Shown: positions 3,064-40,028 of the stretch, piece after piece
How positions within the stretch are numbered: position 1 is the stretch's first letter
Layout: every line of letters starts with the position of its first letter
Assembly: GCF_030409635.1 (NCBI RefSeq)
Contig: NZ_JAUFQF010000004.1
Location: forward strand, 2,018,241 to 2,082,240
Length of the DNA: 64,000 nucleotides
Source: Vibrio agarivorans
GTDB lineage: Bacteria > Pseudomonadota > Gammaproteobacteria > Enterobacterales > Vibrionaceae
Reading direction: 5' to 3'
The notes under the pieces: generated by a model
The model's input: the letters and a program-made list of their open reading frames with translations, nothing else
Databases searched by the model: none
Told to the model about the DNA's origin: nothing
Translations under genes and position numbers: made by a program

Positions 3064-3110
3064 TAGCGTTTAAGCGCTAGCAATACGTTAAATCGTAAAA
3101 CTATAAGAAT

Positions 3111-3140: not shown

Positions 3141-3206
3141 TCTATTGCCCGGATTTGGCAATGGAGCTTTTTAATTACACATGTCACAGACTGAAAGAGT
3201 GAGTTT

Positions 3207-4127: not shown

Positions 4128-4141
4128 GTTGGAGAGCTAAC

Positions 4142-5044: not shown

Positions 5045-5064
5045 TCAAGATTGAGGAAGTAACA

Positions 5065-7025: not shown

Positions 7026-7054
7026 GCCTTACCCATTCAGCCTGTGACGGGCTT

Positions 7055-7088
7055 AAGCGCGGTCTTCTTCGGAAACCGCGCTTTTTTT
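7055..7088 (+). terminator. Intrinsic terminator of the opp operon
   Basis: Perfect arms AAGCGCGGT and ACCGCGCTT around an 11-base loop, followed by a run of seven T. It lies 30 bases after the oppF stop. Confidence 0.93.
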
Positions 7089-7113
7089 ATCCAAAAGCCA
7101 AACGTTTGCTTTT

Positions 7114-22789: not shown

Positions 22790-23101
22790 CCTCTGTAACG
22801 AAGGCTACAATTACTTTTCCTTACTTTTACTTATGTCTCGTGCGTCTGCTTTAACAGATATTTACCACATTGTGACAACTGAATTGTGATAAATGATGGT
22901 AAATTACCTGATTATCGTCAACGAAGGGTTCATTAGGTAAACAAGCTTAAAGTGAGTCCTGGCGTTGTTTTTTCGTTGCTGTTATGTATATGTTTAATAA
23001 ATGATTTTTTACATATTTAAACTACTAACCATCTGATTACACGTTATTATTTTGCCTTTCAATGGAGCAATAGCTCCCTAGTGATACTTTTGAGGCAGTT
23101 T
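22790..23101. other. Intergenic DNA between the insertion sequence and the Asp-box gene
   Basis: AT-rich and without a credible ORF. TTGTGACAACTGAATTGTGATAA near 22871 has two direct TGTGA copies but not the inverted CRP arrangement. The promoter of the Asp-box lipoprotein should be here. Nothing else is evident. Confidence 0.5.
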
Positions 23102-24100
23102 GTGACAAAAAGTTATTTAGCAATAACGACAGCGGCAGTAATGATGTTAGTCGGGTGCACTGAAGATGATGCTAACGCATACCATAGATATAAGGACTGG
23201 AATACAGTTCGAGGAGTTAGCTTAGATAATGCATCGGAATTCAAGTTCACTTACGATGTAGTTAATGATTACATGTATGTAATCTCACGAACACCTAGCA
23301 CCATTGGTAGCCATCTCTACAGAGAAGAAACTTACCACACACCGGAAGGAGCAATTAGTTTTACTTCAGATACAGTGAACCAAGATTGCGACTCGTCTGA
23401 AGGTAGTTGTGATGGTAGACAACGATTTGAATTAGCAAACACAAGTGGCGATATAATTATTGCTTACCATAGCGCTAGTGTAGATGGGGGTCAAAGCTGG
23501 TTTAGAGATCCACTTCACACGAACGCATTCGGTGATGAGCAATATGTTGTTGCAGGAACAGCCTATGAGAGTCGTGACTTCGGTCGAACCTGGCTAACAA
23601 TGCCTATGGCTTTGGATGCTGAATACCGATTTTTTAATGGAGAAGATGTTTATGCTGGAACTGTAACAAACCAGGACTCTACCTCTTTTTGGATCACTAG
23701 TGATAAAGGCAATAACTGGGAAGAGCACACTGAGGTATCAGGCATACCAACGATGCATCCTCTAGGCGACCTTATTGCACTGTTTGACAAGGACGAATCT
23801 GTTATCTATTACAGCCAAGATCTTGCCACAACTTGGCACGTCATAGATATTGAGGGTATTGAGCTAAAGTCCCTGTGGACAGACGGTAATAAACTATATT
23901 TCCTTGGTGAAAATAATGTTCGATATGCGTCAATTTTAGATGATGGCATGCTTAGTGATTTAGTTCAGCTTGGAAGTACGTTTGACCATTTTGACGGAAT
24001 TAATGATGAACCGGTAGTGACCAAATCAATGGAATTCATGAAAGAGATGACTTTCGTCACATTTGCCAATACAAGAGTTGGGATTGCTAACCCAAAATAG
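23102..24100 (+). CDS. Lipoprotein with Asp-box (BNR-like) repeats
   Basis: A 332-residue secreted lipoprotein. I choose the GTG at 23102, with GAGG 7-8 bases upstream, over a GTG at 23081. The signal ends LVGC (Cys19), and Asp-rich EDDANA follows. At least four Asp-box-like motifs are visible: SVDGGQSWF, SRDFGRTW, TSDKGNNW and SQDLATTWH. Such motifs mark beta-propeller proteins such as sialidases and sortilin-like proteins, but no catalytic sialidase residues are apparent. It likely sits on the cell surface or in the periplasm as a binding protein. It lies between an insertion sequence and a type I secretion operon, in accessory DNA. Confidence 0.75.
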   Translation: MTKSYLAITTAAVMMLVGCTEDDANAYHRYKDWNTVRGVSLDNASEFKFTYDVVNDYMYVISRTPSTIGSHLYREETYHTPEGAISFTSDTVNQDCDSSEGSCDGRQRFELANTSGDIIIAYHSASVDGGQSWFRDPLHTNAFGDEQYVVAGTAYESRDFGRTWLTMPMALDAEYRFFNGEDVYAGTVTNQDSTSFWITSDKGNNWEEHTEVSGIPTMHPLGDLIALFDKDESVIYYSQDLATTWHVIDIEGIELKSLWTDGNKLYFLGENNVRYASILDDGMLSDLVQLGSTFDHFDGINDEPVVTKSMEFMKEMTFVTFANTRVGIANPK

Positions 24101-24426
24101 AGAGCCTCAGCACTTCGTAACTCAAAAGTGCCCCAATATCATTTAGTATAAAAGCTCATTCATAATCCGTTAATATGAATCACACATACATTTACTAATC
24201 TAAAAGAAGCTCTAATATTGAAAATCTTGATTTGAACAGAACTAGCTAAAGTTAGATGTTTCTCGTTATAACTTAATTAGTGATAACGTGTGATTTTGGC
24301 TGTAAGATTTTCTCGAAATAACAAAATTCTAGCAATATCTTAAAATTAAATTAAATCAGCCCCTTACCTTGCATAACATAGTAGCCTGTACCAATCTTAT
24401 TTCATAAGCATGGATAAGGATTGTGT
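24101..24426. other. Promoter region of the type I secretion operon
   Basis: AT-rich, no ORF. GCACTT and AAGTGC (24110-24131) form a weak stem after the lipoprotein gene. The start of the operon is marked by AAGGA at 24416-24420. No clear operator was recognised. Confidence 0.5.
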
Positions 24427-26073
24427 ATGCCCGTAAGTTCAATGAAAAACAAAGGGGTGGTGGGGAAAGTCCTACTGCCTTCTTTGCTCATAAATCTTCT
24501 TTCTCTCGCCGTTCCGCTAACGGTTTTACAAATTTACGATCGTATCTTACCTAACCAGAGTTATGGGACTGCCACTCTGTTATTAGCGGGGGCGACGTTG
24601 GCTGTCGCTATGGAAGCGCTAATCCGATTTGTGCGAACTTGGCTTTTGTCTGCTGCGGCCAGTAATACCGAGAAAGCGACCTATCAAACCTTGATCGAGA
24701 GAGTTACAACGGCTTCGTCTCACCATCTTCGCCATATTGGTGTTGGTGGTATAGAAGAAGGGCTTAGCTCTGTATCCAAAGTTAAAGATTGGTACTCTGG
24801 TGGGGTAATGGCAGGCTTTATTGATTTGCCTTTCGCCTTGATCTTCTTGGGCTTAGTGGCTTACATCGGCGGTGAGCTAGTGGCGATACCTTTGGCAGTT
24901 TGGCTGATTACTCTTGGAATTGTTTGGTTATCTTCTATTCGCGTTAAAAGCCTAAGTGAAGAAGCTTCCCAAGATGAGCAGGAGCGAAAAGCGTTTTTAA
25001 TTTTGCTAAGCCAAACCATTCAAGGAATCAAACGTCAGGCTGTTGAGTCTCGAATCTTCAATCAGTTTAAATCCCTCAATCACGTTCGGTCACAATCTAA
25101 AGCGAGAGAAGAAGAACAGAATGTCTTTGCCCAAGAATGTATTCAGCTTGCCGCCTTAGCGACGTCAGTTTTACTCGTGATTACTGGCAGCTTGTGGGTG
25201 TTAGATGGCCAGTTAACTACAGGTGGGTTGGCAGCATGCTCTATCTTATCGGGTAGAGCGGTTGCGCCGTTAAGCGCTTTGGTTGGGATTCGAATCAAGC
25301 TTAATTCAATACACAGCGCTAATCAGGCAATAGAAACATTGAGTGAGTTGTCGATAGGTGAGTCTTCAGATTCTGAGCGTTCTGATTGCGACTCATCTGA
25401 CTTTGAGACGTTGGAAATCAAGCAAGCGACCGTTGAAAGATACGGTGAATTCGCTCATGTGGATGTCAGATTGAATAAAGGTGAGTTGGTATTGTTAGTG
25501 AGTGAGGAGCGCCATACCAACAGTCATTTATTGTCGTCGATTGCAGGTATTGATGATCTGAAAGCGGGTGAGTGCTTCATTAACGGAGCTGCTGTTTCCA
25601 TTGCATCCGTAACCAACATTACTGCCTACTGTGGCGTTAAAGGGCAACTGGTGTCGGGGACCATTCTTGACAACTTATGTGGCTTCGACCCCGAAAGAAC
25701 TCAACGTGCCGGCGACTACGCGAAGCGCTTGGGGTTAACCAAGGAAATCACTCGTTTACCCGATGGACTAGAGACACAAATTGGCCATACGACTGCGTTT
25801 TCATTGAGTATGGGAAATGTGAAAATGCTCAACATCGCAACTCAACTGGCAAGTGATAAACCAATTATCATATTAGAAAGGCCAGATTCTTCACTTGATT
25901 TAGATACCCTTGGAAATCTGGCTAAGGTTCTGGAAGAAGAGGTGACGGCAGGACGAACGATACTGATGGTGAGCTACCATTCTAAACTTCGCGAATTAGC
26001 TAATCGAATCATTACAGTGGAAAGCCGAACTATGGCCGAAGAAAGTGGGAACAATCAGGAGGCTATCGTATGA
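24427..26073 (+). CDS. Type I secretion ABC protein with degenerate ATPase domain
   Basis: A 548-residue ABC exporter half. I choose the ATG at 24427 with AAGGA 6 bases upstream. The membrane domain (about residues 10-300) has six helices and the T1SS-type start LLPSLLINLLSLAVPLTVLQIYDRILP. The nucleotide-binding domain (about 330-545) is badly eroded. The Walker A position reads SEERHTNSHLL with no Gly-Lys-Ser, the signature position FSLSMGNVKML lacks LSGGQ, and Walker B is PIIILERPDSS with Glu and Arg where Asp-Glu is expected. It probably cannot hydrolyse ATP and may pair with the next gene's product, which it overlaps by four bases (ATGA). Confidence 0.85.
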   Translation: MPVSSMKNKGVVGKVLLPSLLINLLSLAVPLTVLQIYDRILPNQSYGTATLLLAGATLAVAMEALIRFVRTWLLSAAASNTEKATYQTLIERVTTASSHHLRHIGVGGIEEGLSSVSKVKDWYSGGVMAGFIDLPFALIFLGLVAYIGGELVAIPLAVWLITLGIVWLSSIRVKSLSEEASQDEQERKAFLILLSQTIQGIKRQAVESRIFNQFKSLNHVRSQSKAREEEQNVFAQECIQLAALATSVLLVITGSLWVLDGQLTTGGLAACSILSGRAVAPLSALVGIRIKLNSIHSANQAIETLSELSIGESSDSERSDCDSSDFETLEIKQATVERYGEFAHVDVRLNKGELVLLVSEERHTNSHLLSSIAGIDDLKAGECFINGAAVSIASVTNITAYCGVKGQLVSGTILDNLCGFDPERTQRAGDYAKRLGLTKEITRLPDGLETQIGHTTAFSLSMGNVKMLNIATQLASDKPIIILERPDSSLDLDTLGNLAKVLEEEVTAGRTILMVSYHSKLRELANRIITVESRTMAEESGNNQEAIV

Positions 26074-28256
26074 ATCGTTTAGATACTGGTAACCGTGCAG
26101 ATACGAATGGTCGACAAGAGGTGATGAATCATTTAGAAACGGAAAGCCTTTCCGTTCTTAAGCATTTGGAAGTTAACGCGAATATCCAGTTGTTTGCACA
26201 CCAATGGGTTGATGAGAATGGTATTGAGTCAATGGACGATATGTTTGCCCTGTTCGATAGGCTTGCATTACCTTATCGCTTGGTTGCCAACCTAGGTGAA
26301 GTTGGTGAGCATAAATTGGTTTTACTGGTGCTTGGTGAAAGTGGGCTGGTTTCTGGCTATATAGAATCCAAACAATTTGTTTCGTTTAGTGCCAATGACG
26401 ACATCACCGATGTCCCGCAGTTTTGCATCGTTATCGAAGGTCCGCCATTAGAGAAAGCCTCTCCTGATTGGGTTGGCGAAAGGTTACATGCGTTTCGTCC
26501 CATCATTCCTAAATTGTTGTTGGTCAGTTTTATTACCAACTTGTTTGCACTTGCTGTCCCCTTCATCACTATGTCGATTTATGACCATGTGATTGGTGGT
26601 GACGCAGGACATGAGCTGCAAGGTATCGCCATTGGCGCGGCGTTGTTGTTTGTGATGATGGGTTGGTTAAGAACACTACGTAGCCAGGTGTTTGCTTCAG
26701 TTTCAAACCGAGTGAGTCGTGAGATATCTCAAGCTCTCGTGCAGCGTCTACTTCGAAATAGCTATGCTCAAAATCAGCAAACATCCTCTTCTAGTCAACA
26801 AAATCAAGTGATGTTGTCGGAGCGAATTTCTGGGGTGTTATCGGGGCCATTAGGAAATGCGCTGTTTGATCTGCCATTCATTCTCATTTTTGTACTTGCA
26901 ATAGGAGTGTTAGGTGGGTGGTTGGTACTGGTTCCTATCGTTTCTTTGGTTCTGTATTACCTATTAGCTAAGCGTTCGATGCGCTCAAGCAGCAAGCGCT
27001 CAATGCAATCGACGGTAGCGGGTACGAACCGTCAAAACATGACCAATGAGCTATCATCCAAACTCGCTTTTATTCGCAGTGCCGGATTCTCGGAGCACTG
27101 GATTCAACGCTTCAAAAAGGCCAACTTTCTTGCTTCTAAAGTTACATTTAAGCAATCTGTTCTCCAGAGTCGCTATACCTCGCTTTACTATTTCATTGGT
27201 GTTGGTTCGACATTAGCTGTGATGGGACTGGGGATAGGGCTTATTTTTGAACAAGTGATGACCCCTGGTGGTTTGATTGCTTCAATGATGTTGATATCCA
27301 AGGTGACGGGGCCAGCTCAGGTGTTGGCAAACAGCGCGATGCGTTTTAATAGCTTTAATCAATCCAAGTTGCAAGTGAACCGTATCTTGTCTCAGCCGTC
27401 TGAGCGTGAATTCAGTTACCAGCATCACCCGCTATCTGTGGTAGCGCCTAACTTGAAATTAGAACAAGTGACCCTGCGTTATCCTAAACAGAGTCGCCCC
27501 GCCTTGAATGGTGTGAGCTTTGATATTGAAGCGGGTGAAATTGTTGCGATTACTGGCCCTTCTGGGAGCGGTAAATCAACATTGATCGAAGTACTGTCTG
27601 GTTTACAGCCTATCCAAAACGGCATGGTCGAGCTTGAAGGCGTTAACCTCGTTCAATACGACCCGCAGCTCTATCGTCACTGGTGTTTTATACGAGCCGC
27701 GTATCCTGATTTGCTCACGCTGAGTATTCGAGAGTGGCTAAACGACGGTCATAAAGTCGAAGACCAGAAGATGATCTCTGCGATTGAAATGGTCGGCGGA
27801 AAGCGTTGGTTCGAGACATTGTCTGGTGGGCTCGATACTTCCATCAGCAGTATTCAGCCGGACAGCCTTTTTGATATGTTGTCTGGTAGCGTCGCGCAGA
27901 TCCTCATTGACGCGAAAGCGCTGGTTTATGACTACCCAATGTTTTTAATGGATAACCCTGTGCCTGATGCTCATCCAAATGCTAAGCGTATATTTGGTGA
28001 ATTTGTGCAATCGAAAAAAGGAAAAGCAACGGTGATCTACACGTCCCACGATCCGGATTTAATCAAGCTTGCCGATAAAGTCGTGGTGTTAAGTGAAGGT
28101 GCTGTGGTTTATGCCGGTCCTTTAGAGGCGGATCAGCCTTTGGAGCAGGAACAGCATTCAGAGCCTCAAGCTTCCCAAGAACAAGAGCCGTCTGCTCAGC
28201 AAGATGCAGCTCAACAAGAACAATCAGAGTCTAAGCAAGGAGTCGCTAATGGCTAA
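26070..28256 (+). CDS. Type I secretion ABC protein with C39-like N-terminal domain
   Basis: A 728-residue protein. Residues 1-150 look like a peptidase C39-like domain without a catalytic Cys. The membrane domain begins LLLVSFITNLFALAVPFITMSIYDHVI. The nucleotide-binding domain (about 460-700) keeps a good Walker A (GPSGSGKSTL, near 496) and an H-loop His (TSHDPDL). The signature is altered (MLSGSVAQIL), the catalytic Glu after Walker B is Asn (MFLMDNPVPD), and no Q-loop Gln is evident. The C-terminus is a Gln/Glu-rich tail. It probably forms a heterodimer with the preceding protein to export the adjacent VCBS adhesin. The last 8 bases overlap the adaptor gene. Confidence 0.86.
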   Translation: MNRLDTGNRADTNGRQEVMNHLETESLSVLKHLEVNANIQLFAHQWVDENGIESMDDMFALFDRLALPYRLVANLGEVGEHKLVLLVLGESGLVSGYIESKQFVSFSANDDITDVPQFCIVIEGPPLEKASPDWVGERLHAFRPIIPKLLLVSFITNLFALAVPFITMSIYDHVIGGDAGHELQGIAIGAALLFVMMGWLRTLRSQVFASVSNRVSREISQALVQRLLRNSYAQNQQTSSSSQQNQVMLSERISGVLSGPLGNALFDLPFILIFVLAIGVLGGWLVLVPIVSLVLYYLLAKRSMRSSSKRSMQSTVAGTNRQNMTNELSSKLAFIRSAGFSEHWIQRFKKANFLASKVTFKQSVLQSRYTSLYYFIGVGSTLAVMGLGIGLIFEQVMTPGGLIASMMLISKVTGPAQVLANSAMRFNSFNQSKLQVNRILSQPSEREFSYQHHPLSVVAPNLKLEQVTLRYPKQSRPALNGVSFDIEAGEIVAITGPSGSGKSTLIEVLSGLQPIQNGMVELEGVNLVQYDPQLYRHWCFIRAAYPDLLTLSIREWLNDGHKVEDQKMISAIEMVGGKRWFETLSGGLDTSISSIQPDSLFDMLSGSVAQILIDAKALVYDYPMFLMDNPVPDAHPNAKRIFGEFVQSKKGKATVIYTSHDPDLIKLADKVVVLSEGAVVYAGPLEADQPLEQEQHSEPQASQEQEPSAQQDAAQQEQSESKQGVANG

Positions 28257-29562
28257 ACAATCTATCGAGAAGGGCAAGCGTTACGGTGAACTTGTTGAAT
28301 CACAAAATACGGCTCGTACATTGGCATTGGCGACGTGGTCAGTTGCTTTGTGTGTTATCGCTTTTGCCACTTGGTCTGTCGTCACCCAAGTTGATGAAAT
28401 TGCCAAAGCCAAAGGCGCAGTTATTCCAGAAGGCGAGAAGCAAGTACTTCAAAGCGCGATTGGCGGTAAATTAAAGCAAATTCTCGTTAAAGAAGGTCAG
28501 TTGGTCGAGAAAGGTCAGCCACTTGTTGAGTTTGATGCGACCTTCCAACGTACCGCTCTTGAAGAATTGAAATCTCAACAAGTGACGCTTCTAGCCAGTA
28601 TTGAGCGTATGAATGCTCTGTTAGAAGAGCGTGAACCGAATCTTGCTGAGTTCGAAGTGGATTATCCAGAGATTGTTAGCCAACAAAAAGCGCAGTTGAA
28701 TGCACAGAAAGCACTCTATTTTCAAAAGCGGGTAGTACTTGAAAAAGAGAGCGAACAGATTTCTGAGCAGCTTCGAAGTGTTGAAAAGTCTTTGCCTAGC
28801 TACGAGAAAGAGTTGGATGCGACCAAGCAAGAGCTGGACATACTGGAGAAGGGGTATGAAGCGGGTAATATTTCACGTTTACGTGTGCTTGAAATGCGAC
28901 AAAAACTGGCCAGTATCGAACAGAAAATCGAAGAAGCTCGTGGTAAGAAAGCTCTGTTAATCAAGCAAGCAGACAGCACAGAGCAAAAAATTGAACAGCT
29001 TTTAGCAGAGGCGAAAGCGAAGGTGAGCGACGATCGTTCTAAAGCCGTATCTGACTTATCAGCATTGAATGCTAGAGTTCGTTCAAGCCAAGCTAAATTG
29101 ACCAACACCATGTTGGTGTCGCCACTACAAGGCTTGGTGCAAAGCCTGCCTAGTACGCAAAACGGTGGTGTTATTCAGCCAGGTGGCACTGTGGTTGAAA
29201 TTGTGCCTGTTGGTGGGAAAGCGGACTTTAAAGCTCGTTTATCGCCAAGAGATATTGGTTTTGTGAGTGTAGGTCAGCCGACTCGTATCAAGATTGATGC
29301 GTTTGATTACAGCCGCTTTGGTGCGCTACAAGGAACGGTTGAGAGTATTTCACCGACCACTAGTCAAAGCGAGCGTGGCGAGATCTATTATGAAGTCGTC
29401 GTCTCGGTTGATACCCCATACTTCCGAGATAACCCTGAAAGCTTTTCTATTTTGCCAGGTATGACGGGAGAGGTAGACATCACTACTGGTGAGAAATCTG
29501 TATTCCAGTACCTATGGAAGCCAATTTACACCAATGTCAGTGTCGCATTTGGTGAAAGGTAG
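28249..29562 (+). CDS. HlyD-family type I secretion membrane-fusion adaptor
   Basis: A 437-residue periplasmic adaptor that would link the ABC pair to an outer-membrane TolC-type channel. The ATG at 28249 is chosen for its AAGGAG, 6 bases upstream, and it overlaps the preceding stop. One membrane helix is at about 24-45. The first lipoyl half AKGAVIPEGEKQVLQSAIGG follows, then a long coiled coil (about 110-285, with EKESEQISEQL and QELDILEKGYEAG). The second lipoyl half is TMLVSPLQGLVQSL, and the beta-barrel contains the HlyD motif YFRDNPESFSILPGM. No TolC-like gene is in the window. Confidence 0.93.
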   Translation: MAKQSIEKGKRYGELVESQNTARTLALATWSVALCVIAFATWSVVTQVDEIAKAKGAVIPEGEKQVLQSAIGGKLKQILVKEGQLVEKGQPLVEFDATFQRTALEELKSQQVTLLASIERMNALLEEREPNLAEFEVDYPEIVSQQKAQLNAQKALYFQKRVVLEKESEQISEQLRSVEKSLPSYEKELDATKQELDILEKGYEAGNISRLRVLEMRQKLASIEQKIEEARGKKALLIKQADSTEQKIEQLLAEAKAKVSDDRSKAVSDLSALNARVRSSQAKLTNTMLVSPLQGLVQSLPSTQNGGVIQPGGTVVEIVPVGGKADFKARLSPRDIGFVSVGQPTRIKIDAFDYSRFGALQGTVESISPTTSQSERGEIYYEVVVSVDTPYFRDNPESFSILPGMTGEVDITTGEKSVFQYLWKPIYTNVSVAFGER

Positions 29563-29658: not shown

Positions 29659-32600
29659 TTAACTATTTGGATCAATGTCCGGCAGTCCGTCTACGTCGTT
29701 GTGATGATGGTGCTCCTCGTCTTGGTTATGGTTATTGGCCGCATCATGGTGTTCGAGCGCGTCTGACATATCCAAGTGCACTTGGTCATGTGTTGCTGCA
29801 TCTGGTTGGTCGACTTGTGAAAGTACGATATCCATATCCGCAGGTTGATCGTGAACCGTTGTCGATGTCGCATCGGGTTTAATGCCCAATGCATCCAGAT
29901 AGGCGGCTGCACCATGGTGGCTGGTTTTCTGATCGGGTTCTTGATGAGCGTGCTGGGTTAAATCTAGATAAGTGTCATCGCTTTGCATGACAGTAAAACC
30001 TGCTTGTAAAGCTATGTCTGGATCATCATTCGGCTCAGGAGGCGGTGGTGGTGGAGCGGGGTGGGATGTGTGAACGACAGGAGTGATCGTCATATCAACC
30101 ACCTCGGTTCCAACTGTCAGCTTACCACTATGTCCAGGCCCATGACTGAGTATCTGGATATTCACATGGGCGACCACTTCATCCTGATTTGTCCCTTGCA
30201 ATGCTACTTCAAATTTATCTTCATGCTGGCCGACACCCGAAGCGCTACCATGAGGGCCCGTATGAACCTGGGCTTGCTCTTGATAATGTAAATGACCAGT
30301 CTGAGGATCAATAGTTAATGTTCCGTATTGCCCATGATGACTAGTGACGTACTGTCCGTTAGGTAAATGGATTCGCCAACCGCTTTGTGTGGATGGTACG
30401 GGAGTTAACGATGGTAATAGTGGCGGAACCCCAAGCGTGCCAGACACTTGGTGACTTCCCGATGGCGGTTTAACAACGATCGGTTCAGGTATCGCACTGG
30501 CAGCAAAACCTTGGCTACCTGCGCTATTACCGTGTTCGTCAGTCATTGTTGCTTGTATATTGGAACCGGGATGAACTTCAATTTGTATTCCATGCTGAAG
30601 AGTATGAGCATCTAATACATGATCCTGACCGTTAACGACAAGATGCTCACCGATTTTGGCATCACCAGGAGGCGTAACGGTTGCTGTGATCGTATTTGCA
30701 TGGCCTCGGGCAATTTCAGCTTTGCTGTATAAGTTGTCAGCCCCTGCGTTTTCAAAAGTAATCGTAGGAAGGCTAACCTGAGTATCTTTGGTAATCGAGT
30801 CAGTCGTCGTTGCGGTTGTACCGTCGTGACTTGTCGCATGCGCCGTCACAGTCAGCGTTCCGTCTTTTAAGGAGGAAAGATCCGCGGTTGTTTGATAGGT
30901 GCCGTCTGTAGCAACAGTGATATTGGCCTTGTCGACGGTGACCGTCGTTGTGCCATCGGTGATCTCAATGCGGTCAAGTGTTGAGGCTACGCTAGGGTCA
31001 AGCGACCCTGAGATAGCGGCCGCACCAGATTCGCTGGCATTTAAGGTATTATCAGAAGTATCCGTAATGTCGACACTCAAGACAGGCGTATCGGCCACGG
31101 CGGCTAAGGCCATGGATGCTGAGGTAGCAACCGTCGCACCCTGAGGATCTTGCACATCGTAGGTAAAGTGGACCGTCCCGTTATAATTAGCATCTGGCTT
31201 GAAGGTGTAGGTGCCGTCTTTATTGTCTGTGACTGTACCGTGATCTGCGCTTAGGTTATGCACGCTCAGCTGCGCGGTTTCACCATCATCATAGTCACCG
31301 GCTTGTGCGAGCAAGTCGGAGGCATGCAGTGTAACAGTGGTATCTTCAGTACCAGGCGAGAGAGTAACGTCTCCGTGCACAAAAGGTGCATCATTAGTAC
31401 CTTCGATGACGAATTCAACCTGATGTGGCGTTCCATCGACACTGTGAATAGTAAAAGTTTCCCTAGCTTCCTGTCCCTTCGCTAGATGATTAACCGCGCT
31501 ATTCTCAATATGGTAAAAGTAGTTGCCATTACCATAGAGTTGCAATGTTCCACCAAGACTTCCTGTGTGGTGATGCAAACCGTCCGGAAATTTTGACTGG
31601 CTTGGCCCATCAGGATCAACGACATGAAATTGGCCGTTTGTTTTAATCGTATAGCCGTAATAGAGATTATCTTCCTCAAGCAGATGCCCGCCCGTCCCTG
31701 TGATGACAGCCGCATCATTAACAGCGGCAAGGGTTGTGTTTGCCCCTGTATGAGCAATGCCACCGTGTCTGTCGGCAACATCGTAAGTAAAGTGGACCGT
31801 TCCGTTGTAATTCGGGTCGGGGTTAAAGGTAAAACTGCCATCTGAATTTGATACCAAGCTGCCGTGGTCTGCAGTCAAGTTTTCAATGTGTAACCAACCT
31901 CTATCATTAGTATCAACATCTGTCGCATTAGCGATTAATTCAGCTTGTGTAATATGTATTGAAGTATCTTCCTTACCTGAAGGTAAAGTGACCTCGCCAC
32001 TAACTGTTGGTACATCATTATCGCCATGCACAACAACGGAGACACTTTTCGAGACATGGCTACCATCAGTAGACACTGCCTCAACCGTAAAGTGCTCCCA
32101 ATATTCGTCGCCGTCTCCTAGTTTTGTCGCTTTGCTCTGATCAACGTCATAATGCCATTGTCCGTCTGCACTTAGGTGGAACGTGCCATACTGACCGCTA
32201 ATGCCACCTGTTGGTGTTTGTGTCCAGCTCACCGTATCGTGGAGATCAACATCGTGTGCGACTACATTGCCGGAAACTGAAGCACCTGTTTGGGCATTTT
32301 CGACGACATGACCCAGTTCTGATTTGGAATCGATGACGACCCCATCCTCTGTGCCGTTAACCTTAACCGTAATAGGAAACTCAGTACCATCGGTTGCTAT
32401 TAGTCTTATAGATTCAGTGAATGATTCACCATGCTTTAATTCTTGAACGTGAACATTATTATTGTCGCCAATATAACTCCACGAATGCTCACCTTGATGA
32501 GGTCCACTTGCGATAGTGTGGAACTGGAATCTGCCATAAGGAGTCGTAACATTTAGGTCACTGCCTATATTCCATGTGTATTGTTTGCCTTCAAATTCGA

Positions 32601-35600
32601 CCGTGACTTGAGTGTTAGGGCTGTCTATATCCGTAATTTGTAGCGCTTGCCAATCAACAGCGTCCATAATATGGGGATTCGTATAAACAACAGTGGCTAC
32701 ATCTTCAGTCGCTACACCATGGTCAACGCCAGAAATAATGGTTTTGTCATCGACTGCGGCAAGTGTTGTACTTGCTCCGGTGTGGGTTACTCCGCCGTGT
32801 GCGTCTTTGACGTCATAGGTGAAGTGTACATCGCCGTTGTAGTCTTTTTCTGGTGTGAAGGTGTAGGTGCCGTCTTTGTTGTCAACGACAGAGCCATGAT
32901 CCACTTGCAGGTTATCGACAGTCAGTTGTCCTGCATCGTTACCATCAATATCAGTCGCATTGGCTAATAATTCATGAGCCGTGAAGGTTAAAGCTGTATC
33001 TTCTGTTCCTGAATTTAAGGTGACTTCACGGCTTACCACGGGTTGGTCGTTTGTGCCATTAATGGTGATGGTAATGACTTGAGGAGTTCCATCTTTAGAG
33101 TGGACAGTCACAGTGTCAGTTAGGGTTTCACCTGCCCCTAAATGTTGGATTTCAGGTTTACGGTTATCAATATAGTAGTTCCAGTTACCGACCCTATCTA
33201 TTCCTAGCAACCCGCCAAGAGAAGAGGTATAGGGTGCATACTCTGGATGTAAAGATACGGTGGCTATTGTTTTAAAGTCAAAGCCACTTTCTCCGCTATC
33301 TGGATCTATTGCATCAAGAGTACCTCTACTCTCCAGTTTGTAGGCGAAGTTGCCACCTTCAACTGCGGCATGGGCGTTTAAGTCTTCAGTTACCGAGCCT
33401 GTAATTGCTCCTTTAAATACTGCTGTATCATTGACTGCAGCAAGTATCGTATTCGCCCCTGTATGCGTAACCCCGCCATGGGCATCTTGCACATCATAAG
33501 TGAAATGAACCTGACCGTTATAGTCTTTGGTTGGCGTGAAAGTGAAGGTACCGTCTTGATTATCTAGAATAGATCCATGATCGGCATGAAGATTCGTAAT
33601 CGTCAGTTTGCCTATGTCGTTCGTATCTACATCTACGGTGTTTGCCAATAGCTCAGATGCAGTGATGGTTTGAGCAAGATCTTCTTTACCGCTGTTAAGT
33701 TGCACCTCACCAGAACAATACGGACGGTCGTTATCGCCATGAATGGTAACAACAATATCGTGTGTGGTGCCATCTGCAGATTTAACGGTGACAGTATCGA
33801 CTAGTGATTCCCCTGTACCCAGATGATCAATAGCTCTGCCGGTTGCACCTTGGCCGATGGAAGCATAGTAGGTCCAGTCCCCGTTAGTTTGAAGTATGAC
33901 ACGACCATGAGTGCCATAATAAGTGCCTGTTTGGGCATAGCTTTCACCTGCATCAGCATCCACTATCGATAGGTGGCCATCGGTATGGATTTCATCGTTC
34001 CACAATTTCCCTATGTTTCCGTGCTGATGATCAGGTGAACGGTCATCAACATAGCCGCCAGTCATACTGCCGTCTGGTGCGGTAAAAGTGTGTCCTTCAT
34101 GAACATCACCTGTATCGACACCTGAGATGGTAGCTGCATCTCCAGCAGCAGCAAGAGTAGACGATGCAGTGGCTTGTACTGAGCCGCCATGAGCGTCTTT
34201 GATATCATAGGTGAATTTAACCTGACCGTTATAATCTTGGTCTGGATGGAACGTAAATGAACCATCGGCATTATGCGTAACTGTGCCGTGATCGGCGGTT
34301 ACTGCGTCAACGTGCAAAGTGCCGGAATCGTTTTTATCAATATCCGTCGCACCTGCTAGCAATTGAGTCTGAGTGATGCGAAGAGTTTGATCCTCGGTAC
34401 CAGCAGGTAATACACGACTGCCTGTAACCGTTGGTGCATCATTGGTACCCGTAATGGTGATTTGTAATTCTTGCGTTGTGCCATCTGCTGTATGCACTGT
34501 GACCTTATCGATATAGGACTGACCTTGGCCTAAAGACTGAACCTGCTGAATATTATTATCCAGTTGGTAATGCCAATCGCCATCGGGTGCTACAACAACC
34601 GAAGCTCCTAGTGTGGAGGTGTAGCCAATGCCTGCATTATTTTGGGCATGTAGCACAGGGTCGAAGTGAGCCTCCCCTGCGTCGGTATCAGTGACATGCA
34701 TGTGGCTATTTACAACTAACCATTGCATGCCATAAATACGATCTTCGGTGACCGCTCCGGTTGTTGTTCCGGTTATTTGAGCTGCATCGTTTGCACCATT
34801 TACTGTAATAGCCACTTGATGGGGGGTGCCATCGGTAGAGTGAACGGTAATGATGTCTTTGGCGTGCTGGCCTTTAGCTAGTGCTTGAACTGCAGGATTT
34901 GAGTTGTCGAGATCATACGTCCAAGCACCACTGTCAGTCAGGTGTAAAGTACCTAATGAGCCTTTTATGTCGGTGTTGGAGAAATGTGCTTCGCCGGTAT
35001 CAACATCGGTTACAGTAAGGGTGCCAGAGGTTTGAAGTTGAGACTCTTCGGTTACTGCACCTGAGTTTGTCCCACCGATTACAGCGGAGTCATTAGTACC
35101 GTTTACGGTAATCGTCACTTGGTGTGGTATACCGTCAGCGGAGTGGACAGTAATAGTATCAGTGGCTGTTTTATTCACGCCTAACGCTTGAACGATAGGA
35201 TTTGTGTTATCGAGGTCGTAAGTCCAAGCACCTGAGTCGGTCAGATGTAGAGTCCCCAAGTTGCCTACGATATCTGTGTTGGAGAAATGTGCCTCGCCAG
35301 TATCGATATCAGTGACAGTCAACGTACCGGATGTTTGTAATTGAGATTCTTCAGTCACCGCACCTGAGTTTGTCCCACCGATTAAAGCAGCATCATTGGT
35401 GCCATTCACGGTGATCGTCACTTGATGCGGCGTGCCGTCAGCGGAGTGGACAGTAATAGTATCGGTAGCTGTTTTATTCACGCCTAACGCTTGAACGATA
35501 GGATTTGTGTTATCGAGGTCGTAAGTCCAAGCACCTGAGTCGGTCAGATGTAGAGTCCCCAAGTTGCCTACGATATCTGTGTTGGAGAAATGTGCCTCGC

Positions 35601-38600
35601 CAGTATCGATATCAGTGACAGTCAACGTACCGGATGTTTGTAATTGAGATTCTTCAGTCACCGCACCTGAGTTTGTCCCACCGATTAAAGCAGCATCATT
35701 GGTGCCATTCACGGTGATCGTCACTTGGTGTGGCGTGCCGTCAGCGGAGTGGACAGTAATAGTATCGGTAGCTGTTTTATGCGCACCTAACGCTTGAACG
35801 GTTGGGTTAGTGTTATCTAAGTCGTACGTCCAAGCCCCAGATTCGGTCAGATGTAGAGTCCCCAAGTTGCCTACGATATCTGTGTTGGAGAAATGTGCTT
35901 CGCCAGTATCTACGTCAGTGACAGTAAACGTACCAGAGGTTTGCAATTGAGATTCTTCGGTTACCGCACCTGAGTTGGTGCCACCAATCACAGCAGTATC
36001 ATTGGTGCCATTTACCGTAATCGTAACTTGATGCGGCGTGCCGTCAGCAGAATGTACAGTAATAGTATCAGTGGCTGTTTTATTCACGCCTAACGCTTGA
36101 ACGATAGGATTTGTGTTATCGAGGTCGTAAGTCCAAGCCCCAGATTGGGTCAGATGTAGAGTCCCCAAGTTGCCTACGATATCTGTGTTGGAGAAATGTG
36201 CCTCGCCAGTATCGATATCAGTGACAGTCAACGTACCGGATGTTTGTAATTGAGATTCTTCAGTCACCGCACCTGAGTTTGTCCCACCGATTAAAGCAGC
36301 ATCATTGGTGCCATTCACGGTGATCGTCACTTGGTGTGGCGTGCCGTCAGCGGAGTGGACAGTAATAGTATCGGTAGCTGTTTTATGCGCACCTAACGCT
36401 TGAACGGTTGGGTTAGTGTTATCTAAGTCGTACGTCCAAGCCCCAGATTCGGTCAGATGTAGAGTACCTAAGTTGCCTACGATATCTGTGTTGGAGAAAT
36501 GTGCCTCGCCAGTATCGATATCAGTGACAGTCAACGTACCAGAGGTTTGTAATTGAGATTCTTCAGTCACCGCACCTGAGTTTGTCCCACCGATTAAAGC
36601 AGCATCATTGGTGCCATTCACGGTGATCGTCACTTGGTGTGGCGTGCCGTCAGCGGAGTGGACAGTAATAGTATCGGTAGCTGTTTTATGCGCACCTAAC
36701 GCTTGAACGGTTGGGTTAGTGTTATCTAAGTCGTACGTCCAAGCCCCAGATTCGGTCAGATGTAGAGTCCCCAAGTTGCCTACGATATCTGTGTTGGAGA
36801 AATGTGCTTCGCCAGTATCAACATCGGTTACAGTAAGGGTGCCAGAGGTTTGAAGTTGAGACTCTTCGGTTACTGCACCTGAGTTTGTCTCACCGATTAA
36901 AGCAGCATCATTGGTGCCATTCACGGTGATCGTCACTTGGTGTGGCGTGCCGTCAGCGGAGTGGACAGTAATAGTATCGGTAGCTGTTTTATGCGCACCT
37001 AACGCTTGAACGGTTGGGTTAGTGTTATCTAAGTCGTACGTCCAAGCCCCAGATTCGGTCAGATGTAGAGTCCCCAAGTTGCCTACGATATCTGTGTTGG
37101 AGAAATGTGCTTCGCCAGTATCAACATCGGTTACAGTAAGGGTGCCAGAGGTTTGAAGTTGAGACTCTTCGGTTACTGCACCTGAGTTTGTCCCACCGAT
37201 TAAAGCAGCATCATTGGTGCCATTCACGGTGATCGTCACTTGGTGTGGCGTGCCGTCAGCGGAGTGGACAGTAATAGTATCGGTAGCTGTTTTATGCGCA
37301 CCTAACGCTTGAACGGTTGGGTTAGTGTTATCTAAGTCGTACGTCCAAGCCCCAGATTCGGTCAGATGTATAGTACCTAAGTTGCCTACGATATCTGTGT
37401 TGGAGAAATGTGCTTCGCCAGTATCAACGTCAGTGACAGTAAACGTACCAGAGGTTTGCAATTGAGATTCTTCGGTTACCGCACCTGAGTTGGTGCCACC
37501 AATCACAGCAGTATCATTGGTGCCATTTACCGTAATCGTAACTTGATGCGGCGTGCCGTCAGCAGAATGTACAGTAATAGTATCAGTGGCTGTTTTATTC
37601 ACGCCTAACGCTTGAACGATAGGATTTGTGTTATCGAGGTCGTAAGTCCAAGCACCTGAGTCGGTCAGATGTAGAGTCCCCAAGTTGCCTACGATATCTG
37701 TGTTGGAGAAATGTGCTTCGCCAGTATCAACATCGGTTACAGTAAGGGTGCCAGAGGTTTGAAGTTGAGACTCTTCGGTTACTGCACCTGAGTTTGTCCC
37801 ACCGATTAAAGCAGCATCATTGGTGCCATTCACGGTGATCGTCACTTGGTGTGGCGTGCCGTCAGCGGAGTGGACAGTAATAGTATCGGTAGCTGTTTTA
37901 TGCGCACCTAACGCTTGAACGGTTGGGTTAGTGTTATCTAAGTCGTACGTCCAAGCCCCAGATTCGGTCAGATGTAGAGTACCTAAGTTGCCTACGATAT
38001 CTGTGTTGGAGAAATGTGCTTCGCCAGTATCAACGTCAGTGACAGTAAACGTACCAGAGGTTTGCAATTGAGATTCTTCGGTTACCGCACCTGAGTTGGT
38101 GCCACCAATCACAGCAGTATCATTGGTGCCATTTACCGTAATCGTAACTTGATGCGGCGTGCCGTCAGCAGAATGTACAGTAATAGTATCAGTGGCTGTT
38201 TTATTCACGCCTAACGCTTGAACGATAGGATTTGTGTTATCGAGGTCGTAAGTCCAAGCACCTGAGTCGGTCAGATGTAGAGTCCCCAAGTTGTCTACGA
38301 TATCTGTGTTGGAGAAATGTGCCTCGCCAGTATCGATATCAGTGACAGTCAACGTACCGGATGTTTGCAATTGAGACTCTTCGGTGACAGTTCCTGAGTC
38401 TGTTCCACCAATAACTGCTTTGTCGTTAGTCCCATTGATCGTAACCATAACTTGATGCGCTGTGCCGTCGGCTGAGTAAACAGTGACTATGTCTGTCGCA
38501 GTCGAACCTTGGCCAAGTCCTTGAACTACAAGGTTATTGCTGTCTAAATTGTATATCCACGCACCGTCTTTGGTGATGCTGAGCGTGCCGAAATTGCTAG

Positions 38601-39768
38601 TTACTTGTGAGGCTTGAAAGTGGTCTTCTCCAAGATCAGAGTCCGTTACCGAAAGCTGTCCTTGGACTTGCGTTGTTAAATCTTCAGTTACCGTGCCAGC
38701 ATCCACGCCTGTAATCACGGCATTGTCGTCGTTCCCGCCGATCGTCATATCGATCGTTTGCGGTGTGCCATCTTTGGTGTGAATTGTGAAACTTTCATGC
38801 AGTGAAGTCGCCCCGGTTAGCGCTTGAACGTTAGAAAGAGAGTTATCAACTTGATACTGCCAGTGTCCATCAGAATCGATAGTTAATGAACCATACTTCC
38901 CAGAGATAACTTCCGGCGCAACCGAACTTTCATTTTGATCAGGGTCTATGACATCAATTTTACCGTTCGCATGTAACAAGCCTTGTGAATCAATATTGTG
39001 ATCTTCTGTGACGACACCTGTTAAGTCTCCAGAAATACTTGGCGTGTCTTGCTTACCCGTGACCGGAACTTGAACAATGACGCTCGAGCCGTTAGATAGA
39101 TGCAACAAGAAATGATCAGTACCTTGTTGGTGCTGATTCAACAGTATGTATTGAGGCGATTTTGGGTTTAATACAAACGTGTATTGACCATTTGCATCAA
39201 CATGAAGCTCTCCGTAGGTACCTTTTATGACTTCTGGCATGAAGGTGACGGGTAAAGCGGTCGTTGTAGGCGCATTCGAATGAGTCGGCTGACCGTTACT
39301 TCCTGATGAGATAGTCGGCATCGATACCGAAGGAATGTAATGGACTTGCGGGTGAGAAAGCGTCGATAAATGATGAGAAGGAACCAAGTGAGAGCTCGAG
39401 CCATGGGGAGCGTGGCTTGCACTTAAGGTAGAGTTTACGTCGCTGTCGCTCGTTTGAGCCTCTTGATGAGTAACCGCTGATGAGTCCATTTTTCCATGGT
39501 GGTCGCTGGAATCTTTTGCTGTCACGTTATTTGCGGCTACTTGATCTGCGTTATCACCGGAATTGTCTACATCCTCGGCAGCTGTGTGTTTAGCCAATGA
39601 TGGCAGTATCATCATGAGTGATTGAAAAAGCGGGATATTAACTTTTAGGTGTGAATGCAGTCTGAGCTTCTTTTTTTTGGTTGGCTTCTTTTGTTCTAGC
39701 TCGTTACTTTTCTTATTTTTGATTTCTGTATTTTTCTTGTTTGCTTCGACGTTTTTTTTGTTAGCCAT
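29659..39768 (-). CDS. Giant VCBS-repeat surface adhesin, type I secretion substrate
   Basis: A protein of about 3369 residues. I prefer the ATG at 39768 (GGATGAG upstream) over one nine bases earlier. A Lys-rich N-terminus and a short hydrophobic segment (PLFQSLMMILPSLAKH) precede a Ser/His-rich linker. VCBS domains follow from about residue 170. Eleven near-identical 101-residue copies span about 455-1560, each containing TVTDxDTGEAHFSNTDI and SGAWTYDLDN. Then diverged VCBS domains alternate with cadherin-like modules (DYNGxVxFTYDVxDxHGG), and an Ig-like module (TPVLSVDITDTSDNTL) comes near 2940. The C-terminal 350 residues include YLDLTQHAHQ, HLDMSDALEHH and a His-rich tail, a plausible T1SS signal. 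No RTX nonapeptides were seen. Likely role: attachment and biofilm. Convergent with its probable exporter. Confidence 0.9.
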   Translation of the reverse strand: MANKKNVEANKKNTEIKNKKSNELEQKKPTKKKKLRLHSHLKVNIPLFQSLMMILPSLAKHTAAEDVDNSGDNADQVAANNVTAKDSSDHHGKMDSSAVTHQEAQTSDSDVNSTLSASHAPHGSSSHLVPSHHLSTLSHPQVHYIPSVSMPTISSGSNGQPTHSNAPTTTALPVTFMPEVIKGTYGELHVDANGQYTFVLNPKSPQYILLNQHQQGTDHFLLHLSNGSSVIVQVPVTGKQDTPSISGDLTGVVTEDHNIDSQGLLHANGKIDVIDPDQNESSVAPEVISGKYGSLTIDSDGHWQYQVDNSLSNVQALTGATSLHESFTIHTKDGTPQTIDMTIGGNDDNAVITGVDAGTVTEDLTTQVQGQLSVTDSDLGEDHFQASQVTSNFGTLSITKDGAWIYNLDSNNLVVQGLGQGSTATDIVTVYSADGTAHQVMVTINGTNDKAVIGGTDSGTVTEESQLQTSGTLTVTDIDTGEAHFSNTDIVDNLGTLHLTDSGAWTYDLDNTNPIVQALGVNKTATDTITVHSADGTPHQVTITVNGTNDTAVIGGTNSGAVTEESQLQTSGTFTVTDVDTGEAHFSNTDIVGNLGTLHLTESGAWTYDLDNTNPTVQALGAHKTATDTITVHSADGTPHQVTITVNGTNDAALIGGTNSGAVTEESQLQTSGTLTVTDVDTGEAHFSNTDIVGNLGTLHLTDSGAWTYDLDNTNPIVQALGVNKTATDTITVHSADGTPHQVTITVNGTNDTAVIGGTNSGAVTEESQLQTSGTFTVTDVDTGEAHFSNTDIVGNLGTIHLTESGAWTYDLDNTNPTVQALGAHKTATDTITVHSADGTPHQVTITVNGTNDAALIGGTNSGAVTEESQLQTSGTLTVTDVDTGEAHFSNTDIVGNLGTLHLTESGAWTYDLDNTNPTVQALGAHKTATDTITVHSADGTPHQVTITVNGTNDAALIGETNSGAVTEESQLQTSGTLTVTDVDTGEAHFSNTDIVGNLGTLHLTESGAWTYDLDNTNPTVQALGAHKTATDTITVHSADGTPHQVTITVNGTNDAALIGGTNSGAVTEESQLQTSGTLTVTDIDTGEAHFSNTDIVGNLGTLHLTESGAWTYDLDNTNPTVQALGAHKTATDTITVHSADGTPHQVTITVNGTNDAALIGGTNSGAVTEESQLQTSGTLTVTDIDTGEAHFSNTDIVGNLGTLHLTQSGAWTYDLDNTNPIVQALGVNKTATDTITVHSADGTPHQVTITVNGTNDTAVIGGTNSGAVTEESQLQTSGTFTVTDVDTGEAHFSNTDIVGNLGTLHLTESGAWTYDLDNTNPTVQALGAHKTATDTITVHSADGTPHQVTITVNGTNDAALIGGTNSGAVTEESQLQTSGTLTVTDIDTGEAHFSNTDIVGNLGTLHLTDSGAWTYDLDNTNPIVQALGVNKTATDTITVHSADGTPHQVTITVNGTNDAALIGGTNSGAVTEESQLQTSGTLTVTDIDTGEAHFSNTDIVGNLGTLHLTDSGAWTYDLDNTNPIVQALGVNKTATDTITVHSADGIPHQVTITVNGTNDSAVIGGTNSGAVTEESQLQTSGTLTVTDVDTGEAHFSNTDIKGSLGTLHLTDSGAWTYDLDNSNPAVQALAKGQHAKDIITVHSTDGTPHQVAITVNGANDAAQITGTTTGAVTEDRIYGMQWLVVNSHMHVTDTDAGEAHFDPVLHAQNNAGIGYTSTLGASVVVAPDGDWHYQLDNNIQQVQSLGQGQSYIDKVTVHTADGTTQELQITITGTNDAPTVTGSRVLPAGTEDQTLRITQTQLLAGATDIDKNDSGTLHVDAVTADHGTVTHNADGSFTFHPDQDYNGQVKFTYDIKDAHGGSVQATASSTLAAAGDAATISGVDTGDVHEGHTFTAPDGSMTGGYVDDRSPDHQHGNIGKLWNDEIHTDGHLSIVDADAGESYAQTGTYYGTHGRVILQTNGDWTYYASIGQGATGRAIDHLGTGESLVDTVTVKSADGTTHDIVVTIHGDNDRPYCSGEVQLNSGKEDLAQTITASELLANTVDVDTNDIGKLTITNLHADHGSILDNQDGTFTFTPTKDYNGQVHFTYDVQDAHGGVTHTGANTILAAVNDTAVFKGAITGSVTEDLNAHAAVEGGNFAYKLESRGTLDAIDPDSGESGFDFKTIATVSLHPEYAPYTSSLGGLLGIDRVGNWNYYIDNRKPEIQHLGAGETLTDTVTVHSKDGTPQVITITINGTNDQPVVSREVTLNSGTEDTALTFTAHELLANATDIDGNDAGQLTVDNLQVDHGSVVDNKDGTYTFTPEKDYNGDVHFTYDVKDAHGGVTHTGASTTLAAVDDKTIISGVDHGVATEDVATVVYTNPHIMDAVDWQALQITDIDSPNTQVTVEFEGKQYTWNIGSDLNVTTPYGRFQFHTIASGPHQGEHSWSYIGDNNNVHVQELKHGESFTESIRLIATDGTEFPITVKVNGTEDGVVIDSKSELGHVVENAQTGASVSGNVVAHDVDLHDTVSWTQTPTGGISGQYGTFHLSADGQWHYDVDQSKATKLGDGDEYWEHFTVEAVSTDGSHVSKSVSVVVHGDNDVPTVSGEVTLPSGKEDTSIHITQAELIANATDVDTNDRGWLHIENLTADHGSLVSNSDGSFTFNPDPNYNGTVHFTYDVADRHGGIAHTGANTTLAAVNDAAVITGTGGHLLEEDNLYYGYTIKTNGQFHVVDPDGPSQSKFPDGLHHHTGSLGGTLQLYGNGNYFYHIENSAVNHLAKGQEARETFTIHSVDGTPHQVEFVIEGTNDAPFVHGDVTLSPGTEDTTVTLHASDLLAQAGDYDDGETAQLSVHNLSADHGTVTDNKDGTYTFKPDANYNGTVHFTYDVQDPQGATVATSASMALAAVADTPVLSVDITDTSDNTLNASESGAAAISGSLDPSVASTLDRIEITDGTTTVTVDKANITVATDGTYQTTADLSSLKDGTLTVTAHATSHDGTTATTTDSITKDTQVSLPTITFENAGADNLYSKAEIARGHANTITATVTPPGDAKIGEHLVVNGQDHVLDAHTLQHGIQIEVHPGSNIQATMTDEHGNSAGSQGFAASAIPEPIVVKPPSGSHQVSGTLGVPPLLPSLTPVPSTQSGWRIHLPNGQYVTSHHGQYGTLTIDPQTGHLHYQEQAQVHTGPHGSASGVGQHEDKFEVALQGTNQDEVVAHVNIQILSHGPGHSGKLTVGTEVVDMTITPVVHTSHPAPPPPPPEPNDDPDIALQAGFTVMQSDDTYLDLTQHAHQEPDQKTSHHGAAAYLDALGIKPDATSTTVHDQPADMDIVLSQVDQPDAATHDQVHLDMSDALEHHDAANNHNQDEEHHHHNDVDGLPDIDPNS
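34975..38400 (-). repeat. Tandem array of 303-bp near-identical repeats within the adhesin gene
   Basis: The landmark GGTGCCATT or its close variant recurs every 303 bases at 35095, 35398, 35701, 36004, 36307, 36610, 36913, 37216, 37519, 37822, 38125 and 38428. Each interval is 101 codons. Two unit types are visible: A (NPIVQALGVNK) and B (NPTVQALGAHK). In protein order they run A B A B B B B A B A A. Diverged units flank the array on both sides. Confidence 0.93.
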
Positions 39769-40028
39769 TTTTCTCATCCGTGAATCGTGGTTGCACTATT
39801 TTAAGTAAAATACACAGATAGATGTTTCGCTAACTAATTGGATAATTTTTAAAGAAAAAAACCAGAAATTGAGACGGTTCTACGTTTTAGGTATCAATGG
39901 ATGCAAGCAACTATGTATTTGAATACTCTGATCAGCGTTTAACCGACCAGCTTGTTTACATATATATTGGATTCAATGAGTGGGCAGCAGTTGTTACTTT
40001 CAAGATGTAGTAACAGAGTGAAAGGGGT

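Follow-up and report, generated by a model that had tools for sequence, protein, structure and literature searches.

Can a type I exporter work when neither of its two ATP-binding cassette (ABC) subunits keeps a catalytic Glu? The question is raised by two adjacent genes, here called P1 and P2, on a 64,000-nucleotide stretch of Vibrio agarivorans DNA (contig NZ_JAUFQF010000004.1, positions 2,018,241 to 2,082,240; referred to as the window) from a genome of 4.9 Mb in four contigs. P1, whose closest named relatives are from vibrios, and P2 each look like an ABC half-exporter; they are followed by an HlyD-type adaptor gene and a convergent gene for a giant adhesin. A preliminary description of the window had called both nucleotide-binding domains (NBDs) degenerate and had suggested unusual energetics. 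Using sequence comparisons, we describe the gene set, the residue pattern, its conservation, its origin by a single change, the selection acting on it, and the charge layout of the adhesin, and we propose how adhesin export might be energized and how the adhesin might be anchored.

Nucleotide-binding motifs of P1 and P2

Motifs were called by alignment to canonical exporters of the same genome and to Protein Data Bank (PDB) chains (among them 5l22 and HlyB). Counts refer to 63 P2 rows (54 distinct; the window, L015-L038, L047-L063, L067-L086, and L159) and 62 P1 rows (53 distinct), with some genomes present from two collections. Where HlyB-like transporters carry a catalytic Glu, P2 has Asn in 63/63 rows and P1 has Arg, Lys, Gln, or Leu in 62/62. 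The preliminary description had stated that neither composite site of the pair combines a signature with a catalytic Glu, and a stronger form of this statement is true, as no catalytic Glu is present in either protein. Nor does P1-P2 contain the one fully consensus composite site of heterodimeric exporters.

In P2, Walker A is intact and Asn occupies the catalytic position, both as first described, and the alignment bears out the altered signature (LSGSV) and the missing Q-loop Gln (0/63 rows). P2 also retains the Walker B Asp and the switch His, which the description did not weigh, along with an aromatic A-loop residue in 63/63 rows (Tyr in 52, Phe in 11). In P1, the loss of Walker A stands, with Lys in 0/62 rows at the Lys position. 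The P1 signature had been listed as lost, which is half right: Ser and the fourth-position Gly are kept (LSMGN) and the other half is gone. Likewise, at the P1 Walker B, Arg does replace the catalytic Glu and the Asp is Glu in the window protein, but the latter change is mild, as Asp is found in 23/62 rows. In the window P1, Val replaces the Q-loop Gln and Tyr replaces the switch His. The D-loop (SLD) is unaltered, and its Asp is present in 62/62 rows. An LSGGL at P2 residues 584 to 588 was considered as a displaced signature and rejected; it belongs to a variable LPxGLDT loop and reads LSGGL in only 19/63 rows.

What the preliminary description missed is that ATP-binding residues are kept at one composite site, formed by the P2 Walker A side and the P1 signature. 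The composite site that uses the P1 Walker A would be abolished. The other, made of the P2 Walker A, Walker B Asp, switch His, and A-loop aromatic together with the P1 signature and D-loop, would bind ATP and looks built to do so without hydrolyzing it well. Because Asn629 replaces Glu and the Q-loop Gln is gone, hydrolysis at this site may be slow or absent. Asymmetric exporters are described in a review as having one degenerate and one working site (PMC7756269). Heterodimers of this kind, such as TAP, TM287/288, TmrAB, and BmrCD (PMC7756269, PMC8277102), resemble P1-P2 in having unlike subunits with defects mostly at one site. Whereas those retain one consensus site, the better site of P1-P2 also lacks the Glu and the Q-loop Gln.

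The same residues could belong to an ordinary, slow ATP-driven exporter whose one site hydrolyzes ATP through the switch His by substrate-assisted catalysis, with Asn629 only positioning water. The retention of the switch His (60/63 P2 rows) and the Walker B Asp (63/63) fits such an exporter. In HlyB, the switch His is called a "linchpin" with a computed chemical role, and H662A has <0.1% activity (PMC6222333); biochemical data are said in a review to suggest substrate-assisted over general-base catalysis (PMC8277102). However, the His is replaced by Gln in three rows, all of one subclade (L047-L049), the Q-loop Gln is also gone, and in other exporters Glu loss is described as the hallmark of a site too slow for sustained transport (PMC7544095). 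We consider this alternative somewhat unlikely.

Conservation, origin, and selection

Clade P2 rows are 45 to 94% identical to the window P2. The widest pair of clade P2 NBDs is 42% identical, and 35 NBD positions are invariant, N629 included. The Asn629 codon is AAC in 29 and AAT in 15 of the 44 copies caught by our pattern, which missed the rest. A P2 search of 197 family genomes gave matches in 43 (E ≤ 1e-60); one of these (G502) holds only the Glu-bearing kind, leaving 42 with the Asn clade, and motifs were read in 38 of them (37 fetched plus the window; G506, G523, G527, and G530 were left out). Searches of 394 order-level genomes (E ≤ 1e-70) and 369 class-level genomes (E ≤ 1e-60) gave 33 matches and 7 matches including the source genome, respectively.

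One scan of named genomes identified 24 loci with P1 relatives at 68 to 93% identity, all from Vibrio or Vibrionales records except for one from Ferrimonas; cassette records include V. splendidus, V. crassostreae, and V. coralliilyticus, among others. In the Ferrimonas record, the pair is 86 to 87% identical. Six plasmid records of Vibrio species (V. europaeus, V. tubiashii, V. fortis, and V. navarrensis) also contain the P2 gene, whose product is 86 to 95% identical and annotated as an "ABC transporter transmembrane domain-containing protein." Based on this plasmid carriage, the P1-P2 cassette may be mobile. Complete, co-directional P1-P2-HlyD sets are present in 23/24 named loci and in 35/37 clade loci from the family search. 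L035 has short frames in all three cassette genes. In L067 (G437), the exporter cassette is split over several frames and is not followed directly by the adhesin gene. L070 (G515) has no P1 and a P2 lacking its start in the fetched 19 kb, with HlyD and a convergent adhesin frame remaining. We left L035 out of two alignments and of the substitution rate estimates because of its broken frames, and also left out L039, a copy of the window; a P1 fragment (L065) and a partial P1 (L089) were left out of the trees.

Two wider sets of tandem pairs bear on the origin of the pattern. Set A (seven class-level loci in six genomes; P2 27 to 30% identical) has the P2 Walker A, Gln, and Glu in 7/7 loci and keeps the switch His too; its P1s, one of them partial, retain Walker A and Gln wherever these can be read, have Glu in five and Asp in two at the catalytic position, and have Leu for the switch His in two. 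Signatures are odd in both set A subunits. Set B (16 order-level and three Vibrio loci: L143-L158, L064, L065, and L066; P2 31 to 37% identical) has lost the P1 Walker A where readable, has an intact P2 Walker A and His, and keeps the P2 catalytic Glu in 18/19 loci (Asp in L158). In a quick P2 tree (48 rows, motif columns removed; some long branches and a tool warning on deep joins), the Asn clade forms one side of a branch (SH-like approximate likelihood ratio test [SH-aLRT] support of 100) with one Glu-to-Asn change, a count reached by 0/500 shuffles. Loss of the P1 Walker A Lys is also one change in the equally quick P1 tree (47 rows), where a single branch sets off each of sets A, B, and C (support 88, 84, and 100). 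The most parsimonious account is of an asymmetric exporter that lost one site first and then, once, the Glu of the other site, with no regain in the rows read.

Selection was estimated by the Nei-Gojobori method from 24 close orthologues (276 pairs, which are not independent; pairs with dS > 1.5, saturated, or near-identical silent sites were dropped). Median ratios of nonsynonymous to synonymous substitution rates (dN/dS, or omega) in P1 were 0.030 for the transmembrane domain (TMD; 164 pairs) and 0.082 for the NBD (170 pairs). In P2, they were 0.022 for the TMD (183 pairs), 0.035 for the NBD (120 pairs), 0.082 for the C39-like domain (107 pairs), and 0.430 for the C-terminal tail (199 pairs). 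No NBD value exceeded 0.18, and the degenerate NBDs of P1 and P2 are under strong constraint.

Lost motifs, together with three broken or incomplete clade loci (L035, L067, and L070), are what decaying pseudogenes or a sequencing artifact might leave. But the frames are open, the tree has a single change, Asn is found in all rows read over deep divergence, and omega is far below 1, so that we regard the chance of decay as close to negligible. Recent decay in particular would have left canonical motifs in the orthologues; none were found in the clade rows read, and it is rejected by this conservation and dN/dS. The preliminary view that the pair does not look like random decay is strongly supported, as orthologues keep the altered residues under purifying selection.

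The exporter genes and the convergent adhesin

P1 is 550 amino acids (aa) long from the TTG at 24421 and 548 aa from the ATG at 24427, the latter being the more likely start. The P1 and P2 frames are both open over the coordinates in Table 1, and the genes overlap by 4 bases. The HlyD open reading frame opens at 28204; its start is likely at 28249, which would overlap P2 by 8 bases.

Table 1. Features of the exporter cassette and the convergent adhesin gene (window coordinates)
Feature	Position	Strand	Evidence or conservation
P1, ABC half-exporter with degenerate NBD, without N-terminal C39-like domain	24421..26073	+	open frame
P1 Walker A site, SEERHTNSHLL, without the P-loop Gly and Lys	25501..25533	+	Lys in 0/62 rows
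P1 signature LSMGN, retaining Ser and the fourth-position Gly	25804..25818	+	Ser 62/62, Gly 59/62
P1 catalytic position, Arg for Glu	25879..25881	+	R 48, K 11, Q 2, L 1 of 62
P2, ABC half-exporter with N-terminal C39-like domain, 728 aa	26070..28256	+	open frame
P2 C39-peptidase-like domain (CLD fold of HlyB)	26124..26453	+	
P2 Walker A GPSGSGKST, intact	27555..27581	+	G, G, and K (K502) each 63/63
P2 Q-loop position, Ala for Gln	27699..27701	+	A 59, D 4 of 63; Gln 0/63
P2 signature LSGSV, degenerate	27879..27893	+	
P2 Walker B Asp628 and Asn629 (catalytic Glu position)	27951..27956	+	D 63/63, N 63/63
P2 switch His660	28047..28049	+	H 60, Q 3 of 63
HlyD-type membrane fusion protein	28249..29562	+	TIGR01843, 372 bits (cut-off 209)
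Giant cadherin/VCBS adhesin, convergent, 3372 aa, putative substrate	29659..39777	-	domain scans
Last 60 adhesin residues, acidic and rich in His, with few K/R and without RTX repeats; putative export signal region	29662..29841	-	
First 60 adhesin residues, with a Lys-rich block followed by NIPLFQSLMMILPS; putative stop or retention element	39598..39777	-	

The pair was tested as a member of the ABC exporter (type IV fold) superfamily. Both proteins have the ABC_membrane TMD (at 47.7 and 69.9 bits against a cut-off of 28), and the ABC ATPase domain fold is present. The top NCBIfam match of both subunits is TIGR03375 (LssB), at 269.1 and 312.6 bits, and neither reaches its curated cut-off of 693.1. 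Over the TMD and NBD, the best PDB chain for P1 and P2 is 5l22, with HlyB (8dck and 7sgr) among the matches. The P2 N-terminal domain has the fold of the HlyB-like substrate-docking domain, by fold match of its predicted structure, and shares the C39-like domain of HlyB-like transporters. As in heterodimeric exporters, two unlike half-transporters are encoded together, and P1 and P2 probably pair as a heterodimer. The pair resembles HlyB-type type I secretion systems (T1SS; HlyB, LssB, and PrtD; TIGR01846, TIGR03375, and TIGR01842) in its TMD-NBD half-exporters, HlyD adaptor, and the C39-like fold of P2, but lies far below the TIGR03375 cut-off and has two different subunits, neither with the catalytic Glu.

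With both sites looking noncatalytic, the pair might instead be no exporter at all and act as a nucleotide-sensing regulator or static anchor, the adhesin being secreted by another exporter; in one genome, the fetched DNA does hold the adhesin frame but lacks P1. The exporter architecture with its CLD-like domain, TMD omega values (0.022 to 0.030) that are the lowest of the domains measured, and HlyD next in line with a complete set in 58/61 clade loci all speak against this, and we judge such a role very improbable.

The window adhesin, in which domains were scanned, contains 20 Cadherin_4, 5 Cadherin_5, 5 Big_9, and 21 VCBS stretches. A convergent large neighbor with an acidic, His-rich tail is present in 35/35 clade loci with enough flank (L048-L063 and L068-L086; L047 and L067 were left out; the next large gene of L067 is on the same strand and is not the adhesin). 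The last 60 residues of these 35 proteins hold 13 to 21 Asp and Glu, 5 to 11 His, and 0 to 2 Lys and Arg. GGxGxD is absent from the last 400 residues of 32 and occurs once in 3, and the window adhesin has no RTX Pfam match. In the readable set B loci, the large gene next to HlyD is co-directional with the exporter; these tandem pairs, from other gammaproteobacteria and the three Vibrio loci, share the gene order of the clade and differ in the P2 Glu and the strand of the large gene. The convergent adhesin of the clade may be the substrate of P1-P2-HlyD.

The window adhesin has a net charge of -330, and its 20-residue segments with a charge above +2 number 37 among the first 80 and 0 among the other 3273. 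Adhesins of other species have a few weaker cationic peaks elsewhere (maximum, +3.2). We obtained 17 adhesin N-termini from 20 fetched genomes, which with the window makes 18, selected by an ILPS-type motif; 7 to 14 Lys and Arg lie in the 45 residues before this motif in 17/18, and the called start of L161 is too late to judge. Set B adhesin N-termini are cationic in 11/12 read, the called frame of L147 being a repeat artifact. By eye, some of these set B N-termini (e.g., L146 and L151) have RLxAKELRD and then NQDLVADKS in place of the LILPS motif. The LapG-type cleavage motif [TAP]AAG was found in 0/18 N-termini by a simple motif test of residues 1 to 250. LapA/LapBCE is similar in that a T1SS handles a giant adhesin with a putative N-terminal anchor, but the clade N-terminus is Lys-rich with an LILPS-type motif and without a LapG-like [TAP]AAG. 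LapA-type retention and an RTX-type substrate were both set aside on such simple motif tests.

Other adhesin systems offer further comparisons. SiiE of Salmonella, exported by SiiCDF with SiiAB, is likewise a surface-held T1SS giant adhesin, although SiiF is described there as an ATPase subunit (PMC6272769). The BapP cluster of Pseudoalteromonas tunicata is similar by description, with a cadherin-like adhesin, tandem ABC genes, and an adaptor, but includes a LolD-like ATPase gene (PMC12153261).

The ABC exporter membrane domain is matched 15 times in the source genome, 14 times above the cut-off. Another tandem ABC pair, of 544 and 712 aa (L009, C1:396000-408000, positions 3327-7096), lies near genes for a TolC-like protein, HlyD, and a hybrid histidine kinase. 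Both proteins have an intact Walker A, odd signatures (PFSRQ and LPNSI), and Asn at the switch His position, and the catalytic Glu is present in the larger protein only. Another locus (L010, C2:188000-198000, positions 3038-6923) encodes an RTX-like 261-aa protein, a 554-aa ABC half-exporter, and HlyD, a layout that we take to be CabABC-like. This half-exporter has a natural Glu-to-Gln Walker B (DQP) without LSGGQ, and matches are found in 3/99 genus genomes, including its own (E 1e-90). V. vulnificus CabB was considered as a precedent for a degenerate NBD and set aside, since the ABC protein of this locus, matched in only 3/99 genus genomes, has at most a putative link to CabB. Just upstream of P1, at window positions 23081-24100, is a lipoprotein-like protein with weak, sub-cut-off matches to sortilin and a glycosylhydrolase family, and a gene that looks by eye like a transposase lies about 1.7 kb upstream of P1 (21663-22763).

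Possible roles of ATP in adhesin export

We tentatively favor, at somewhat less than even confidence, a dedicated one-shot adhesin exporter in which ATP serves mainly as a gate or clamp, hydrolysis is slow or absent, and another force drives export. P1, P2, the HlyD adaptor, and an unlinked TolC-type channel would form a dedicated type I exporter of the convergent adhesin. With slow or no hydrolysis, the role of ATP would mainly be to open the channel or hold it. The unfolded, very acidic adhesin would exit C-terminus first, drawn or pushed by the membrane potential and by folding outside, and export would end when the Lys-rich N-terminal block jams and anchors the protein; as T1SS substrates leave C-terminus first, this block comes last and could jam. 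Rapid ATP turnover would be unneeded because one exporter would serve about one adhesin. A sharper version, in which ATP is a ligand and not a fuel of a single-use ATP-gated channel, with a polyanionic substrate driven by potential and outside folding until a cationic N-terminal plug stops it, is in our view unlikely. The unusual energetics suggested in the preliminary description seem a fair inference.

Published work provides background for these steps. Regions with a charge above +2 block export via the TliDEF ABC exporter, and negative charge aided export by three other ABC exporters (PMC9223453). C-terminus-first export is described for HlyA (PMC5018854) and SiiE (PMC6272769). Of two models given for HlyA, one makes ATP a gate, "similar to ATP-gated channels," and the article also mentions the proton-motive force (PMC5018854). 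Use of the proton-motive force has been proposed for the SiiAB proton-channel pair (PMC6272769), which sets a precedent for a non-ATP energy source at this stage.

Several observations weigh against the gate-or-clamp proposal. HlyB H662A, which binds ATP without hydrolyzing it, fails early in HlyA export, the HlyA export rate is unchanged by calcium, and in the HlyA gate model it is hydrolysis, not binding, that opens the channel (PMC5018854). We found no published biochemistry on the P1-P2 pair. Full-length AlphaFold models are poor (mean predicted local distance difference test scores, 47.6 and 55.6) and do not allow inspection of the ATP site, and usable fold matches came from only two parts, the P1 NBD and the P2 N-terminal domain. 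Since Glu-bearing set B pairs also accompany adhesins with cationic N-termini, one-shot anchoring alone does not explain the Glu loss. The L070 adhesin frame without a complete pair fits strict dedication badly and slightly lowers our confidence. Finally, a TIGR03375 T1SS ABC protein above the cut-off is present in 43/43 carriers and could supply hydrolysis in trans.

That last point leads to a partner ATPase acting in trans, for example an exporter of the LapB/LssB type with which the pair would form a mixed assembly. TIGR03375 is above the cut-off in all 43 carriers versus 119/154 other family genomes (162/197 overall), a comparison that ignores kinship, and the Pseudoalteromonas adhesin cluster pairs tandem ABC genes with a LolD-like ATPase (PMC12153261). 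However, TIGR03375 proteins are widespread in the family whether or not a genome has the pair. A simple Walker A and signature scan of the fetched flanks showed no recurring stand-alone ABC ATPase; it caught only P2, a 530-aa protein in L035, and a class-set P1 in L088. We think a partner improbable. Choosing a T1SS partner by co-occurrence was rejected as uninformative. Two genes that look by eye like Opp-type ATPases lie at window positions 5065-7025, about 17 kb from P1.

Among the titles and abstract beginnings returned by searches of an open-licence library, we recognized no description of this pair or of a pair without Glu at both sites. As an ABC exporter, P1-P2 would have no consensus catalytic site at all, contrary to the picture of asymmetric exporters with one degenerate and one working site (PMC7756269). 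For the driving force of T1SS, the HlyA rate study retains two models, continuous ATP use and hydrolysis as a channel-opening effector (PMC5018854). A Glu-less clade that keeps ATP-binding residues beside Glu-keeping sisters is a natural experiment on this drive, and a simple N-terminal charge feature of the adhesin would predict its anchoring.

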